Assembly: GCF_001570965.1 (NCBI RefSeq)
Contig: NZ_BCSR01000030.1
Location: 1 to 37,158, forward strand
Reading direction: 5' to 3'
Source: Janibacter corallicola NBRC 107790
GTDB taxonomy: Bacteria; Actinomycetota; Actinomycetes; Actinomycetales; Dermatophilaceae
DNA: 37,158 nucleotides
Shown piece after piece: positions 19,909 to 25,476 of the stretch; position 1 is the stretch's first letter, and the number at the start of each line of letters is the position of its first letter. The notes below the pieces were generated by a model. That model searched no databases. It saw only the letters and a list, made by a program, of their open reading frames with translations, and had not been told where the DNA came from. The translations under genes were made by a program, and so were the position numbers.

Positions 19909-21093
19909 TCAGTCCTCCACGCGCACGACGAGGGCCATGCCGGAGTCCCCTGCGGCACAGCCGGTGAAGAGCCCGGTACCGCCGCCGCGCAGCCGCAGCT
20001 CCTCGACGAGCTCGGCGATCGAGCGCAGCCCGGTCGGGCCCTGCGGGTGACCGAAGACCAACGAGGACCCACGCACGTTCATCCGCTCCAGCGGGTAGCC
20101 GGTCTCCCGGGAGAAGTACAGGTCGTTGACGGCGAAGGGGTTGTGCGTCGTGACGAGGTCGACGTCCTCCATCGTCAGCCCGGCATCAGCCAGCGCCTCC
20201 CGCGCCGCGGGCACCGGCGCCTCCGGCATCCGCGACCGCCCCACCCGGGCGGTGCCGGTCGCGAGGAGACGGACGACCCCTTCGCCACCGGAGAGCTCCC
20301 GGGCGGCCTCGGTGGTGGCCACCACGGCACCTGCGCAGCCGTCGGCGGGGTGGGTCTGGGTGGCGAAGGTGTGGATGCCCTCCGGGTCCACGGTGCGCAG
20401 TCCGGCGATCGACTCCGGGTCGACCGGCCGGATCCCCTCGTCGGCCTCGAGGGTGACCGCGCGGCGGCCGGAGCCGACCTCGACCGGCACCATGTAGCGG
20501 CGCTGGAAGGCCCGGCCCTCGGCGAGCGCGCTCGTGTACTGCTCGTGGCGCAGCACCTTCAGCTCGTCGGCCTGCTGCCGGGTGAAGCCCCCTTCGCGCC
20601 CGACGAGGTCGCCGGCGGCGATCATGCTGGAGCCGGCCCACGGGTCCCGGGAGAAGCTGTCCAGGACCCAGTGGGTGCTGGTCGGGGCGCCGCCCTGGCC
20701 GTTCGGGTCCGGGTAGACGAGCGTCGGCCCGTTGCTCGTGCGGTCGGTCGCGACGACGAGCCGCACGTCCCCGTCCGCGGTCGTGGTGGCCGCCGCCTGC
20801 AGCGCGGCGACCGAGGTCGCGCAGGCCTGGCTGACCATCGGCCCGGTCAGGCCCTCCGCGCCGATGCGCGCGGCGAGCAGCGGCGTGCCGTAGAAGATCT
20901 CCGGCTGCGGGACCGACCATCCGAGCACCAGCCCGGTGAGCCGCTCGGGGGCGAGGCCCCGGTCGGCGAGGGCCCGGCTGGTCACCGCGGCGGCCACGTC
21001 GAGGCTGGAGACCCCGCCGAGGCTGCCCTGCCACTTGGCGAAGGGGGAGCTCCACACCATCCCCGCCGGGACGGCGACGTCGGGCAGCTTCAT
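19909..21093 (-). CDS. Thiolase-family acyl-CoA acetyltransferase
   Basis: A 394-residue thiolase. The nucleophilic Cys91 lies in SQACATSVAAL. FGHPQGPTGLR near residue 345 gives the catalytic His, and Cys379 in TGCAAGDSGMA gives the second catalytic Cys. It should cleave a 3-ketoacyl-CoA with CoA to release acetyl-CoA, or run the reverse reaction. The ATG at 21093 overlaps the stop of the upstream ligase gene by four bases (ATGA). That pairs it with a feruloyl-CoA synthase-like ligase and suggests side-chain shortening of an aromatic acid. The ligase is frameshifted, so translational coupling into this gene may be lost. Confidence 0.87.
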   Translation of the reverse strand: MKLPDVAVPAGMVWSSPFAKWQGSLGGVSSLDVAAAVTSRALADRGLAPERLTGLVLGWSVPQPEIFYGTPLLAARIGAEGLTGPMVSQACATSVAALQAAATTTADGDVRLVVATDRTSNGPTLVYPDPNGQGGAPTSTHWVLDSFSRDPWAGSSMIAAGDLVGREGGFTRQQADELKVLRHEQYTSALAEGRAFQRRYMVPVEVGSGRRAVTLEADEGIRPVDPESIAGLRTVDPEGIHTFATQTHPADGCAGAVVATTEAARELSGGEGVVRLLATGTARVGRSRMPEAPVPAAREALADAGLTMEDVDLVTTHNPFAVNDLYFSRETGYPLERMNVRGSSLVFGHPQGPTGLRSIAELVEELRLRGGGTGLFTGCAAGDSGMALVVRVED

Positions 21094-22902
21094 GAGGCGC
21101 TCCTTGCGGTGATGACGGCGGGGCTCTCGCTCCCGTCGTGGAGGATCTCGACGAGGTCGGCGCGCAGCTGACGCACCTTGCGCTGGTTGACGTAGCCCTT
21201 GTCGGTGATCTCCCCGCTGTCGAGGCCGGCGGGGCGGGCAAGCAGGAGCACGCGGACGACGCGGCCGGCCGAGCCGACGGTGGCGTTGTACTCGGCCAGG
21301 GCCCGCGCCACGTGCTCGGCCAGCTCGGGGTCGTGCACGACCTCCCCGTCCACGGTGGCCACGCGCCCCAGCAGGTGGGCGACCTCGCCCGCGTGGGGCC
21401 AGGCGAGCGCGCAGACCTCGTCGGCGTTCTCGCCCGTGATGACGGCGTCGGAGAGCATCGGGCAGGCGGAGAGCAGCGCGGTGCGCACCGCACCGACGCG
21501 CACGAAGGTCCCCGTCGCCAGCTTGAAGTCCTCCGCGATGCGGCCGCGGAAGAGCAGGCCGCGGTCGGGGTCCTCGGGGTCGGTGAGGGTGACCGCGTCA
21601 CCGGTGCGGTAGAAGCCCTCGTCGTCGAAGGCGGCCTCCGTCAGGTCCTCGCGGTGGAGGTACCCGGGGGTGACCATCGGCCCGCGGGCGCGGATCTCGT
21701 AGGCGTCGCCCGAGGGCACGAGCAGCACGTCGGCGCCCGGCAGCGGCACCCCGATGTTGCCCGACTCCTCGAAGTCGTAGTGGGCATTCGTCACTGCCGG
21801 CGCCGTCTCGGTCAGGCCCCACGAGCCGGTGATCGGCACCGGGTGGCCGGTCGTCCGCTCCGCGACCGCCCGCATCCGGGTGCGCAGCGCCGACGGCAGC
21901 GCAGCAGCCGCGTTGAAGACCAGCCGGAGTCGGGAGAAAGAAGACCTTCGCCAGGTCGGGGTCGTCCTCGAGGGCGGGAACGAGCTGGGCGAAACCGGCC
22001 GGGACGTTGAAGTAGATCGTCGGCGGGCGGCTCGCGATGTTGCGCAGGGTCACGTCGAAGAGGTCCGGGGCGGGCCGGCCACCGTCGACGTAGAGCGAGC
22101 CGCCGTTGACCAGGACCATCCCGACGTTGTGGTTGCCGCCGAAGGTGTGGCTCCAGGGCAGCCAGTCGAGGATCACCGGGCGCTCCTGCTCCAGGAAGGG
22201 CCAGACCTCACGCATCATCTGCTGGTTCGCCGACCACATGCCGTGGGTGACGATGACCCCCTTCGGGGAGCCGGTGGAGCCGGAGGTGAACTGGATCTTG
22301 GCGACCGAGTCGGCGGTGACGGCTCCGTAGGCCTCCTCCACCGCGGCGGTCGCCGTCGTGGCCCGCAGCTGCTCGAGGGTGTGGTCCCCCTCGCCCCGGG
22401 CGACGATGCGGGGCAGGTCGCCGAGGGCGTCGATGGCGGCGGAGAAGGCACTGCCGTCCTCGGCGAAGACCGCGCCGGGCGTGAGTAGCCGGCCGATCTC
22501 CCGGATCCGCGCGTGGTCCTCGGACAGCAGCGAGTAGGCGACGCTCGTCGGGGCGATGGGGATGCCCACACCGAGCGCCCCCATCGCCATGAGGAAGTGG
22601 TCGACGCCGTTGCCGGAGAGCATGAGCAGTGGTCGCTCCGGGCCGAGCCCCAGGTCCAGCAGCGCCTGCCCGATCGCGCGGATCGCGGTGTCGGCCTGCC
22701 CGTAGGTGACCTCGCGCCAGCCGTCCTCGCCGTCCCGCTCCGCGATCAGGACGTGCTCCGGGTCGCGGTCGACCCACTCGCGGAAGGACTGCACGACGGT
22801 CGGCGGGTAGTCCGAGAGGGGTCGCGTCGAGCGCAGCAGCAGGGAGCCGTCGGGCCGCTCCTGTGCGGTGATGCTCGGCTCGGCGAAGAGTGCGCTGGCC
22901 AT
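21090..22902 (-). pseudogene. Feruloyl-CoA synthase-like AMP-dependent ligase, one-base frameshift
   Basis: An acyl-adenylate-forming ligase that would be about 603 residues if intact. The N-terminal half has the AMP-binding P-loop FTSGSTGSPKG and DWLPWSHTFGGNHN. The C-terminal half has GSWGLTETAP, YRTGDAV and GRIAEDFKLATGTFVRVG, the last being typical of feruloyl-CoA synthases. The frame breaks at LAKVFF: a run of three A at 21937-21939 on the plus strand should be two. The shifted frame then stops at 21598. Either the base is a sequencing error or the gene is dead. The leaderless ATG at 22902 follows a good promoter, and the thiolase gene overlaps its 3' end. Confidence 0.8.
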
Positions 22903-22918: not shown

Positions 22919-22937
22919 ATGACCTTCGTCACATCAA
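22909..22937 (-). promoter_or_regulatory. Promoter of the ligase-thiolase operon
   Basis: TTGATG (22932-22937) and TAGAAC (22909-22914) on the minus strand are exactly 17 bases apart, and the ATG follows after six more. This predicts a leaderless transcript. The -35 box overlaps the stop codon of the upstream sucrase/ferredoxin-like gene. Confidence 0.6.
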
Positions 22938-23845
22938 GGGGTTGTAGTGTTTTCCTGCTCCCGCTCGATGGCGAAGAGCGCCTGCGCCTTCGGCCCGCCG
23001 GTGCAGGAGAGGACGTGCGGCTCGCTCATCGTGCGCCTCACCACCCGGACGAAGGGGCCCTGCGGCGCCTGGACGGTCACCCGGAAGACGTCGTCCGCGA
23101 GGACCTCCACGTGCGGATCGGGCAGGTCGGCCAGCCGCACCCGCGGGTCCTCGCCGAGCAGGCGGTGCACGACCACCTGCGCCGCGGGGTGCCAGGACGA
23201 GCGGCCCCGCCAGCGATCCAAGTCGACGCGTCCGTCGAGGTGGTCGAGGACGACTCGTGGGGCGGTGTCGCCGTCCACACGTCCGTACATCGACCCCTCC
23301 GGCAGCAGCGCGACGTTGCCGGCGAAGCGGTCTCCCCCGAGGTGGCTGGTCTCCCACACCGCCCCGGGCAGCACGTCGTCGAGCACCGCGGCGACGACTC
23401 GGCCGCTGATCGCGCAGCAGACGTCCTTGCGCCCGTGGGTGCAGACGAGGAAGAGCGGCTCCTCGCTCGGGTTCGGCAGGTCCTCGAAGCGACCCGCGAG
23501 CTCCACGAGGTCCTCCGGGCTGTGCCAGGTGGAGCGGCCGACCAGGCCGCGGCGCACGTCGACGAGGAAGACCGGCAGCGGGGTACGCCCCTCGCGGACG
23601 GCCTCCTCCACCCGGCCGTGCGGGCGGACCAGCTGCAGCCGGGCGCCGACGCGTCCCAGCTGCTTGGACAGTGGCCCGGCCACCTCCGTGAGCGGCTCGG
23701 CGTCGATGGGCTTGCGGGGCCATGGCCCCGGGTGGCCGACGAGCAGCCAGTACGGCGCCGGCACAGCCGTACCCACCGGGATGTCGCCACGGTCACGCGC
23801 CGCGAGCGAACACCGGAATCCGCGAGGGGCAGCACTGGTGCTCAC
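22934..23845 (-). CDS. Sucrase/ferredoxin-like protein (Suc_Fer family)
   Basis: A 303-residue protein of the sucrase/ferredoxin-like family, which has a thioredoxin-like ferredoxin fold. Cys12 in RCSLAARD, and Cys135, Cys143 and Cys144 in VCTHGRKDVCCAISGR, are the candidates for a [2Fe-2S] cluster. ETSHLGGDRFAGNVALLPEG at 165-184 is the other family motif. The role is unproven; electron transfer is likely. The GTG at 23845 begins ten bases after the stop of the JmjC-oxygenase gene, so it is probably the third gene of that operon. A TAGGGT box seven bases upstream could also give it its own leaderless start. It may supply electrons to the oxygenase or act independently. Confidence 0.83.
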   Translation of the reverse strand: MSTSAAPRGFRCSLAARDRGDIPVGTAVPAPYWLLVGHPGPWPRKPIDAEPLTEVAGPLSKQLGRVGARLQLVRPHGRVEEAVREGRTPLPVFLVDVRRGLVGRSTWHSPEDLVELAGRFEDLPNPSEEPLFLVCTHGRKDVCCAISGRVVAAVLDDVLPGAVWETSHLGGDRFAGNVALLPEGSMYGRVDGDTAPRVVLDHLDGRVDLDRWRGRSSWHPAAQVVVHRLLGEDPRVRLADLPDPHVEVLADDVFRVTVQAPQGPFVRVVRRTMSEPHVLSCTGGPKAQALFAIEREQENTTTP

Positions 23846-23855
23846 GGGATCGACC

Positions 23856-25091
23856 CTAGGCCCTCGTCGTCGGGCCGGGCACCCCGACCCCTGCCAGCAG
23901 GAGCCGACGGGCGAGGTCCTCACCCAGGTCGGCGACGTCGGACTCGCCGCCGGCCAACCACGCCCTCACGGCCGGGGCCTCTCCTTCGTCCAGCGGCAGG
24001 CGACCCGCCCGGCTGCGCAGCGTCGTGCCGGAGTCGTCGGACTCGAGCGTCGCCGCGAGGTGGTCGCGTACCCGCAGGGTGCCCGCCGGGGACGCCGCCG
24101 CCCCCGTCGTGGCGACCGGCGCCACCGGAGCGGGGCGCTGGGCCGACCGCTGGCGGCCGGCGAGGAACTCCGCGATCGCGCCGGCGTCGACGTCCGCGAG
24201 GGCTTCCACGAGCGCCTCGCGCACCGCTGCGACGTCGGCCACGAGCTCCCGGGGCTCGGTGACGTCGACCCCGGCACGGAGAGGAGCCCGCAGCCCCTCC
24301 TGCCCGGCCACGGCGCGTCCGGCGACGTCGAGCAGACCCTCGGCGAGGTGGTGCCGGTTCCACACGTGCACGCCCAGGGTCAGGTGGGTGCTGACCCCGC
24401 CCAGCGCGGTGGCGGCGTGCAGCCATCCGCGGGGCACGTAGAGGGCGTCGCCGGGGCGGAGGGTGACCTCGAGGTCGGGGGGTCCGGCGGCGGCCGCTGC
24501 CACCTCGGCTGCCCGGTCCTGCCAGGGCTGGTCGCGCAACGGCCACGGGTGGACGGGGCGGTGCAGCCGCCAGGTCTTCTCCCCTGCCGTCTGCAGGACG
24601 AAGACGTCGTGCACGTCGTAGTGGGCGGCGAAGCCGCGGCTGCTCGGCGGGGTCACGTAGGCGTTGGCCTGCACCGGGTGGCCGAGGTCGGCGGCGAGCG
24701 CCTGCGCGAGGTCGATCACCGGGGGGTGCGTGCGGTGCAGGCCCTGGAGGACGAGGGTGTGCCCCTCGCCGAAGAGGCGCAGCAGGGCGGTGTCATCGAC
24801 CTGGTCCCGGATCGCCGCCCCGACTCCGCCACCGAGGGTGAACTCCGAGCCGTCGAGCGTGCGTCCGTCGCGGGCCACCCGCAGGAAGGGAGTGCGCAGG
24901 CCGCGCCGCGAGAGCAGGTCGTCCACGTCGGCCGTCGTGAGTCGGTGGGCGAAGGGGGCAGGCACCCGGCCGGCGGGCACGTGCCGGGGCGCCCTGCCCC
25001 AGATCTCCTCGAGACGGTCCAGGTCCAGGTCCGTCACGTGGGCGAGGCCGGCGCCCCGGGCTGGGGCGCCGGCCTCGGAGGACGGCGTCAT
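23856..25091 (-). CDS. JmjC/cupin 2-oxoglutarate oxygenase, ROXA/MINA-like
   Basis: A 411-residue member of the JmjC-type cupin family related to ribosomal oxygenases (YcfD/ROXA, MINA53, NO66). The stretch NAYVTPP followed by GFAAHYDVHDVFVLQ supplies His157 and Asp159 of the iron-binding HxD. GDALYVPRGWLHAA at 214-227 supplies the distal His225. The motif EKTWRLH after the HxD strand is where these enzymes bind 2-oxoglutarate through Lys/Arg. The C-terminal 160 residues form a helical, winged-helix-like part. The ATG directly follows the stop of the repeat-peptide gene (TGA then ATG, no gap), so the peptide is the prime candidate substrate. Ribosomal proteins remain an alternative. Confidence 0.85.
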   Translation of the reverse strand: MTPSSEAGAPARGAGLAHVTDLDLDRLEEIWGRAPRHVPAGRVPAPFAHRLTTADVDDLLSRRGLRTPFLRVARDGRTLDGSEFTLGGGVGAAIRDQVDDTALLRLFGEGHTLVLQGLHRTHPPVIDLAQALAADLGHPVQANAYVTPPSSRGFAAHYDVHDVFVLQTAGEKTWRLHRPVHPWPLRDQPWQDRAAEVAAAAAGPPDLEVTLRPGDALYVPRGWLHAATALGGVSTHLTLGVHVWNRHHLAEGLLDVAGRAVAGQEGLRAPLRAGVDVTEPRELVADVAAVREALVEALADVDAGAIAEFLAGRQRSAQRPAPVAPVATTGAAASPAGTLRVRDHLAATLESDDSGTTLRSRAGRLPLDEGEAPAVRAWLAGGESDVADLGEDLARRLLLAGVGVPGPTTRA

Positions 25092-25340
25092 TCAGGCGCC
25101 GCCGTCCGCACCACCGTCACCAGCGCCGCCATCGGCGCCACCGTCACCAGCGCCGCCGTCCGCACCACCGTCACCAGCGCCGCCATCGGCGCCACCGTCA
25201 CCAGCGCCGCCATCGGCGCCACCGTCACCGGCACCGCCATCGGCGCCACCGTCCGCGCCACCGTCACCCGCGCCCGTGGGCACGCCGCCGATCGCGCTCT
25301 CCTCGGGGATGTCCGGAGGATCGTTCGGAATCTGCGTCAT
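25092..25340 (-). CDS. Precursor-like peptide with Gly/Ala/Asp 9-residue repeats
   Basis: An 82-residue protein. Residues 1-22 (MTQIPNDPPDIPEESAIGGVPT) look like a leader or recognition segment. Residues 23-82 contain only Gly, Ala and Asp: a short degenerate part and then five copies of GGAGDGGAD, giving 13 Asp in 60 residues. There is no Cys, Ser, Thr, His or Lys in that part, so Asp is the only reactive side chain. A perfect AAGGAG (25347-25352) six bases before the ATG shows it is a real, well-translated gene. It abuts the JmjC oxygenase gene. I infer a hydroxylated repeat peptide (RiPP-like) or an acidic metal-binding peptide; no known family was recognised. Confidence 0.8.
   Translation of the reverse strand: MTQIPNDPPDIPEESAIGGVPTGAGDGGADGGADGGAGDGGADGGAGDGGADGGAGDGGADGGAGDGGADGGAGDGGADGGA
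25095..25274 (-). repeat. 27-bp in-frame tandem repeat
   Basis: At least five full 27-base units and degenerate flanking ones code the Gly/Ala/Asp repeats. Two unit versions occur, one with GTCCGCACCA and one with ATCGGCGCCA at the same position (plus strand). They run in the order A, B, A, B, B and then a degenerate B-like unit. Near-identity at DNA level points to recent duplication and possible copy-number variation. Confidence 0.9.
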
Positions 25341-25476
25341 GAGCCACTCCTTGCCTCGGGCCGCGGTGCTCTGCGACCACGGCGTACTCCCTTCCTACCG
25401 AAGCAGCGTGCTGAGCGAAAGACCCTGCTCGCCGTCGACCCGCACGCTGCGACATTTGGATTGCGGGGCAACGGGT

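Follow-up and report, generated by a model that had tools for sequence, protein, structure and literature searches.

A candidate peptide-hydroxylation cassette of Actinomycetota that combines an Asp-rich repeat peptide, a JmjC_2 oxygenase and a ferredoxin-like protein

What does a JmjC-type oxygenase act on when the gene immediately in front of it encodes a short peptide of Asp-containing repeats? The question is raised by a contig of Janibacter corallicola NBRC 107790 (NZ_BCSR01000030.1, 37,158 nucleotides; the whole stretch is called the window hereafter), in which an 82-codon open reading frame (ORF), a 411-codon oxygenase gene and a 303-codon Suc_Fer gene follow one another on the minus strand. 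A preliminary description of this locus had proposed that the oxygenase hydroxylates the Asp residues of the peptide, in a system resembling those of ribosomally synthesised and post-translationally modified peptides (RiPPs). In the computational survey reported here, 153 of the 155 main-branch oxygenases that could be judged were preceded by an Asp-rich peptide or, at a contig edge, by the tail of one. The peptide is very probably the substrate of the oxygenase, and the system as a whole is likely to be a RiPP-like cassette that makes poly-hydroxyaspartyl peptides by hydroxylation of Asp.

The local gene arrangement agreed closely with what had been described. The AAGGAG hexamer, noted earlier as a perfect ribosome-binding site, ends 6 bases before the peptide ATG; the peptide stop codon ends at 25092 and the ATG of the oxygenase abuts it, as stated; and the Suc_Fer gene opens with GTG after the reported gap of 10 bases. 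The division of the peptide into 22 non-repetitive residues and a C-terminal 60 held when the composition of the latter was counted (33 Gly, 14 Ala and 13 Asp, with nothing else). While the number of 13 Asp residues was thus correct, their spacing is not regular as had been claimed, being 4 or 5 residues and not uniform. Neither the window peptide nor four of its relatives matched any Pfam or NCBIfam model.

Relatives of the cassette were collected in 200 loci, which gave 189 distinct oxygenases once duplicates had been removed. Scores with profile A1 split sharply, 156 oxygenases reaching 331 bits or more and 33 scoring 277 bits or less, and the main branch was defined as those above 300 bits, a line set after the gap was seen. 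One locus, L090, was set aside, as it has just 43 bases of upstream sequence. Among the 153 upstream Asp-rich peptides, 151 are repetitive and two are not; the preliminary description had held that a consistent lack of a repeat peptide beside homologous oxygenases would speak against it, and the opposite was found. A script called peptides at 150 of the 156 main-branch loci, after which L025 was removed as a false call and L069 was added. Three further loci (L009, L091 and L093) were counted by eye from a peptide tail at the contig start, and in L010, whose oxygenase does not differ from the L009 one, the peptide is complete. L015 was counted as well, being broken at the contig start but with its repeat visible.

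The association extends well beyond the genus. The oxygenase occurs in 28 of 58 genomes of relatives (J. corallicola included). These 28 genomes hold 30 loci, 26 of which have an Asp-rich peptide in front of the oxygenase, one being cut by a contig edge. Scanning of genome contigs gave 550 confirmed relatives, of which the best 80, all with named records, were used, so that near relatives are over-represented; the genera among these 80 include Terrabacter, Streptomyces, Arthrobacter, Blastococcus, Modestobacter, Actinokineospora and Nocardioides. In a class-wide search the family, outer branches included, was present in 131 of 394 sampled genomes, at least 67 of which gave an oxygenase match above 300 bits, and 60 further regions, hand-chosen from this search, were read. 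In a search across the phylum, 42 of 296 genomes contained the family, and 29 of these genomes belong to other classes. The set from other classes held 20 loci, from which L223 was removed as a duplicate of L028, and 16 of the remaining 19 have an Asp-rich peptide; L222 and L228 are cut off by the end of the contig, and the filter found none in L226. These enzymes score lower with profile A2, yet the peptides are still present. The neighbourhood search that had been suggested for other Actinobacteria thus recovered the peptide, and likewise the Suc_Fer gene (see below). A ribosomally encoded putative precursor beside the gene of a putative modifying enzyme, an arrangement expected of RiPPs, was found in 153 of 155 main-branch loci and in 16 of 19 from other classes.

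Open frames are common in tandem repeats of GC-rich DNA, and the short ORF might thus be a low-complexity artefact. With a stricter filter, 71 of the 75 zones upstream of the oxygenase in the named loci gave a peptide ORF. Of 1761 other strand windows of 750 bases, taken from these loci, only 5 held a similar ORF. A chance ORF was rejected because of this control. The codon-position pattern also stands against an artefact, the likelihood of which is negligible. In 11 leaders from the same genus, a set without that of the window, differences were distributed 149/10/321 over first, second and third codon positions, and those among six exact repeat copies in the window core 0/0/39, that is, at third positions only, a pattern which is partly there by construction because the copies were picked for near-identical amino acids. 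The peptide gene is under protein-level selection. The stop codon of the peptide and the start of the oxygenase (starts chosen by script) lie 4 bases or fewer apart in 72 of 150 loci, a spacing which would suit a translated leader that regulates the oxygenase by attenuation or translational coupling without any modified product. However, the peptides range from about 50 to 200 codons, their cores have been rebuilt, selection acts at the amino-acid level and gaps of up to about 150 bases also exist, all of which make a purely regulatory role very unlikely.

We then considered the enzyme itself. All 46 aligned sequences matched JmjC_2 (PF08007). The HxD...H triad reported as intact (His157, Asp159 and His225) was invariant in alignments of 16 and of 46 sequences, the window's included, and Lys172, whose position we take to be that of the 2-oxoglutarate-holding Lys, was invariant among the 46. 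A profile search of the PDB matched chains of NO66 (E 9.7e-33), MINA, YcfD-type proteins and Bacillus subtilis YxbC, and the HYD motif and Lys of the oxygenase aligned with those of NO66. A Foldseek search with the AlphaFold model (pLDDT 93.7) returned NO66 as the best match (E 1.3e-23, TMq 0.63), followed by MINA, YcfD and YxbC, with FIH as a distant one (E ~1e-9, TMq 0.35). Because of the NO66-like predicted fold and the intact HxD...H...Lys site, the enzyme is, on its model, a ROX-type JmjC oxygenase with a complete active site. Arg66, Arg120 and Arg186 are invariant among the 46 sequences and unmatched in the NO66 alignment, and may serve to grip an acidic peptide.

Since the nearest solved relatives are ribosomal oxygenases of the ROXA, NO66 and MINA kind, it could be envisaged that the target lies elsewhere, for example in a ribosomal protein, and that the peptide is a functional small protein (a Ca2+ or metal buffer, or a disordered acidic chaperone) whose gene is just co-regulated. 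RTX repeats are nonapeptides of the form GGxGxDx[hydrophobic], and the cassette peptides share with them Gly/Asp-rich repeats but have no hydrophobic position. Gly/Asp-rich RTX repeats can bind Ca2+, which speaks for this idea. However, the RTX signature was found in 1 of 148 peptides, and RTX-type Ca2+ repeats were rejected on this ground. Moreover, the association persists for 153 of 155 enzymes and across classes despite rebuilt peptide sequences, and for 17 of the 33 outer enzymes the slot is occupied by a different small peptide, a finding that a ribosomal target leaves unexplained. Thus a free-standing small protein seems rather improbable, and substrate remains the favoured role of the peptide.

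The composition of the repeat cores bears on which residue would be oxidised. Frequent cores are DGGADGGA and EGPADGGAxGxPGxHDGGADGGA, with DGGADGG present in 121 and GPAD[GS]GA in 90 of 148 peptides. Deviating repeats in Actinomycetes include STDADAD (L028), DGTDGD-like units (L029, L163-L166) and SDPAGSDPAG (L027), and cores from other classes of the phylum are of DGTDGD, DADADA and DTTD types (for example DADGTDGDGTDGTDGD, DADAADADASDADA and DTDTTDSTDTDTT). The peptide type follows the enzyme tree, with 18 changes against 48.1 in shuffles for 97 of the 189 enzymes, a clustering that near-copies favour. The peptide filter required an Asp content above 9%, a small number of Arg residues and low entropy, with no demand on Gly or Ala. 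Asp content of the core did not fall below 11.9% in 149 main-clade peptides (L015 and L025 left out, L069 included) and 13.5% in 16 from other classes, a floor that is partly built in because of the filter; despite this demand, a peptide was absent for only 2 of 155 enzymes. In the same two sets the lowest values were 2.5% (median 39%) and 2.9% for Gly, and 3.8% and 8.8% for Ala. Each of Ser, Thr, Pro, Glu and His is absent from some cores, Gly and Ala from none, and the number of Asp residues past residue 20 is 5 to 40, with a median of 13. Since Asp remains abundant throughout the cores, whereas Gly can be as low as 2.5% and Ala as low as 3.8%, these figures support the earlier proposal of Asp as the target. 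No Cys was seen past residue 20 in 148 of 148 peptides (a set that still holds the false call L025 and lacks L015 and L200) and, besides the oxygenase, only Suc_Fer recurs widely, so a lanthipeptide or thiopeptide type of RiPP was rejected. The label 'BatC protein' for such peptides was not borne out either.

It is also conceivable that the oxygenase modifies the peptide in another way, by oxidation of the Gly/Ala backbone, desaturation, cross-linking or epimerisation, or in two steps, for example from Asp to aminomalonate with Suc_Fer as the second enzyme. 2-Oxoglutarate oxygenases also desaturate and cyclise, Gly and Ala vary but occur in all cores, and Suc_Fer is a frequent companion. A precedent is the SmaO/SmaX RiPP pathway, in which Asp is reported to be converted through hydroxy-Asp to aminomalonate (cited in PMC13097080). 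The contents of Gly and Ala are nevertheless far more variable than that of Asp, the enzyme has a plain hydroxylase's fold and active site, and no further enzyme recurs in the 75 named loci. We therefore regard such chemistry as unlikely, and hydroxylation of Asp as the better account of the cores.

The third gene product is the sole match to the Suc_Fer family (PF06999) in the genome. A same-strand Suc_Fer gene lies behind the oxygenase in at least 124 of the 153 relatives with 700 or more downstream bases, a lower bound, since the search was a tblastn that used the window protein as query and was confined to the same strand. By the same search none of the 33 outer loci has one, and L159, an outer locus, has a Suc_Fer gene nearby on the opposite strand. 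The model of the protein (pLDDT 88.6) weakly matched the thioredoxin-like [2Fe-2S] ferredoxin of A. aeolicus (E 2.1e-3). In line with the conserved Cys of the preliminary description, the frame Cys135-X8-Cys144 with His168-x-G-G is present in 56 of 57 sequences, the exception, L060, being truncated. Asp172 is found in at least 90% of the aligned copies, and the motif thus ends in HxGGD. Apd1/Aim32 and Suc_Fer ferredoxins share the C-X8-C and H-x-G-G frame, but the ligand motif of Apd1/Aim32 is C-X8-C...HxGGH (PMC11138216), and its second His is Asp172 here. The protein is therefore probably a [2Fe-2S] protein that is not of the standard bis-His kind, and the HxGGD motif is a possible [2Fe-2S] site with an Asp ligand.

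The outer relatives offered an opportunity to view the peptide slot in other surroundings. The long repeat peptide type is present in none of the 33 outer loci; instead, small Asp-containing peptides occupy the same slot in 17 of them (branches B to F), these having been selected by eye among short ORFs that follow a ribosome-binding site, where the script had flagged 7. In branch B (L146, L147, L150-L154 and L175), an S9 prolyl oligopeptidase gene precedes the peptide in 8 of 8 loci (Pfam was run on two) and the JmjC_2 oxygenase completes a trio, which is a second RiPP-type cluster. The branch B peptides have 35-38 residues, with the pattern EVEVEDL...TSRD.TAGG..DGTD.SSDFI and the form MDP..EVEVEDL.EVTSRD.TAGGDSDGTDSSSDFI. 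Peptides of branch C have GRSDGND or GRSDLND near their end, and those of branch D have DPDGSDG or similar. The L141 peptide contains CDPDPSDDC and adjoins an ATP-binding cassette (ABC) transporter. On a linear plasmid of Streptomyces clavuligerus (L231, 4760-10927), a 48-residue peptide (WP_009999493) with DNDPSDP and DPDPFDP, a cupin/JmjC enzyme, an S9 peptidase on the opposite strand and an ABC transporter stand in a row; the peptide is annotated as hypothetical and the enzyme as a cupin. In two annotated outer relatives the enzyme is named merely 'cupin domain-containing protein'. The ordinary RiPP surroundings of these peptides make it more likely that the main cassette encodes a precursor. 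The RiPP-like nature proposed at the outset is thus supported by the short Asp peptides of the outer branches, by the S9 peptidase in all eight branch B loci and by the ABC transporter in two single loci. As further observations on this group, the peptides ending in GRSDGND or GRSDLND adjoin an aldo/keto reductase in L157 and L232, and in L158 and L176 a protein that resembles, by eye, a kinase of the aminoglycoside-phosphotransferase type, with no Pfam match at 1e-5.

In the mechanism we favour, the 82-residue precursor would be made first and then passed to the JmjC_2 oxygenase, which, with Fe(II), O2 and 2-oxoglutarate, would hydroxylate the repeated Asp side chains, most likely at the beta carbon, to yield a poly-hydroxyaspartyl peptide. 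Suc_Fer, through its putative [2Fe-2S] cluster, would probably act as the electron donor that keeps the iron reduced, or might act on the product; it would be helpful without being universal. The densely acidic hydroxylated product would probably bind metal ions. It may remain and act inside the cell, because no exporter or protease recurs in the 75 named loci.

A number of observations weigh against this account. The closest characterised relatives of the enzyme hydroxylate His or Arg of ribosomal proteins, and not Asp. The Asp floor of the cores, as mentioned above, owes something to the filter. L016 and L025 have an oxygenase and no upstream peptide (2 of 155 judged), and L077 (Arsenicicoccus cauae) and L184 have a non-repetitive acidic peptide in the slot. 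The tblastn search did not detect Suc_Fer on the same strand in 29 of 153 main-branch loci, and 16 of the 33 outer relatives have no visible peptide. Among ORFs of at least 90 residues in the 75 named loci, neither a protease nor an exporter was a recurrent neighbour of the core cassette, and in 147 upstream regions none of 11 regulator consensus motifs clearly exceeded its count in simple shuffles. Finally, the N-terminus is kept within the genus, a pattern like MTQ..N-.PD[ILVM][PS]-..-IGG[VM]P being found in 12 other loci, and is not kept across the branch, where the N-terminal motif acidic-[IMLV]-x-[TS] occurs in only 54 of 149 main-clade peptides; it occurs in 13 of 16 peptides of other classes, with a typical leader resembling LTDEDIETV.

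The same searches gave some minor results. The peptides of L077 and L184 have a C-terminal half in common (DDPEL.GADL.EDQ..G.GPT.EPGA), perhaps after repeat loss. Further recurrent ORF groups in the 75 named loci comprised antisense ORFs in 20 loci, spurious by eye, and then groups of 9, 9 and 8; one 8-locus group resembles the ATPase of an ABC transporter, at scattered positions on both strands. The largest count for a regulator motif was ArgR-like (18 against 9 in shuffles), and a count of upstream 8-mers returned GC-rich words, some of them above shuffles, such as CCTCGTCG (21 against 1).

As to known systems, NO66 (RIOX1), MINA53 (RIOX2) and YcfD/ROXA have the closest fold over most of the chain and the same HxD...H...Lys site. 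Their substrates, by the titles of their entries, are His or Arg of ribosomal proteins, in contrast to the adjacent Asp-repeat peptide here. FIH, a hydroxylase that accepts Asn and Asp in repeat proteins among other targets, belongs like the cassette enzyme to the JmjC oxygenases, but is distant in fold, as the Foldseek search indicated. BipG (PMC12707348) and PbsQ (PMC12257519) are JmjC or cupin enzymes which hydroxylate ornithine in biphenomycin-type RiPP precursors; BipG is described as a proven, Fe(II)- and 2-oxoglutarate-dependent JmjC peptide hydroxylase of a RiPP pathway. Both systems share with our cassette a JmjC- or cupin-type enzyme and, as target (a putative one here), a side chain of a ribosomal precursor peptide. 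They differ in the residue and in belonging to a many-enzyme pathway, with a multinuclear non-haem iron-dependent oxidative enzyme (MNIO), a radical S-adenosylmethionine enzyme, an arginase and a protease, whereas here no modifying enzyme other than the oxygenase is obvious and the core consists of a long Asp repeat. SmaO/SmaX, compared by their reaction, resemble the proposed system in the beta-hydroxylation of Asp in a ribosomal peptide, but act at the peptide N-terminus in a graspetide cluster (PMC13097080).

Neither Asp-repeat peptides of this kind nor their link to a JmjC enzyme were found in the open-access literature, a search that left subscription papers mostly outside and could have missed a publication. 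In the main text of the decRiPPter paper (PMC7794033), a term search returned neither 'cupin' nor 'JmjC'. The cassette is RiPP-like, which is a known kind, and the chance that it merits a separate class is fair. Taking all parts together, we tentatively put forward, at somewhat less than an even chance, a new Actinomycetota-wide RiPP class founded by a JmjC oxygenase, in which iterative hydroxylation of 5 to 40 Asp residues (median 13) in a tandem-repeat core would give poly-beta-hydroxyaspartate, a genetically encoded multidentate chelator of Fe(III)/Ca(II). The ferredoxin with its unusual Cys/His/Asp cluster would be the dedicated redox partner, and outer branches B to F, with their short Asp cores and, in some, a dedicated S9 peptidase, would be sister classes. 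If true, a widespread actinobacterial peptide-modification cassette, with oxygenase matches above 300 bits in at least 67 of 394 sampled genomes of the class and with members in other classes, has so far been overlooked, and would offer a minimal, genetically encoded means of making polyhydroxylated aspartyl polymers. The range of JmjC chemistry, with histones and ribosomes as its targets, would then also cover small peptides dedicated to it, and a simple function could be assigned to Suc_Fer proteins and to a large set of actinobacterial JmjC_2 enzymes.

Table 1. Positions of the cassette genes and their motifs in the window
Feature	Position	Strand	Basis
Putative precursor peptide gene, 82 residues	25092..25340	-	ORF with AAGGAG; Asp-rich peptide upstream in 153/155 judged relatives
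Presumed leader, non-repetitive N-terminus, residues 1-22	25275..25340	-	Similar start in 12 other loci of the genus
Repeat core, residues 23-82, 13 Asp	25095..25274	-	Composition Gly/Ala/Asp only
Shine-Dalgarno AAGGAG of the peptide gene	25347..25352	-	Read from the sequence
JmjC_2 / cupin Fe(II) 2-oxoglutarate oxygenase (predicted), 411 residues	23856..25091	-	PF08007, E 3.6e-25; AlphaFold; Foldseek
His157-x-Asp159 codons, predicted Fe ligands	24615..24623	-	Invariant in both alignments (A1, A2); aligned to HYD of NO66
Lys172 codon, presumed position of the 2-oxoglutarate-binding Lys	24576..24578	-	Invariant; aligned to NO66 Lys
His225 codon, predicted third Fe ligand	24417..24419	-	Invariant
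Suc_Fer-like, thioredoxin-like ferredoxin protein, 303 residues, GTG start	22934..23845	-	PF06999, E 9.1e-20
Putative cluster motif C135-X8-C144 ... H168-x-G-G-D172 of Suc_Fer	23330..23443	-	C135, C144 and H168 in 56/57; D172 in at least 90%

Next to the cassette, at 21090-22902 on the minus strand, a frame resembling by eye an AMP-forming acyl-CoA ligase appears to be split over two overlapping frames (ORFs of 434 and 261 residues), and may represent a sequencing error or a decayed gene.

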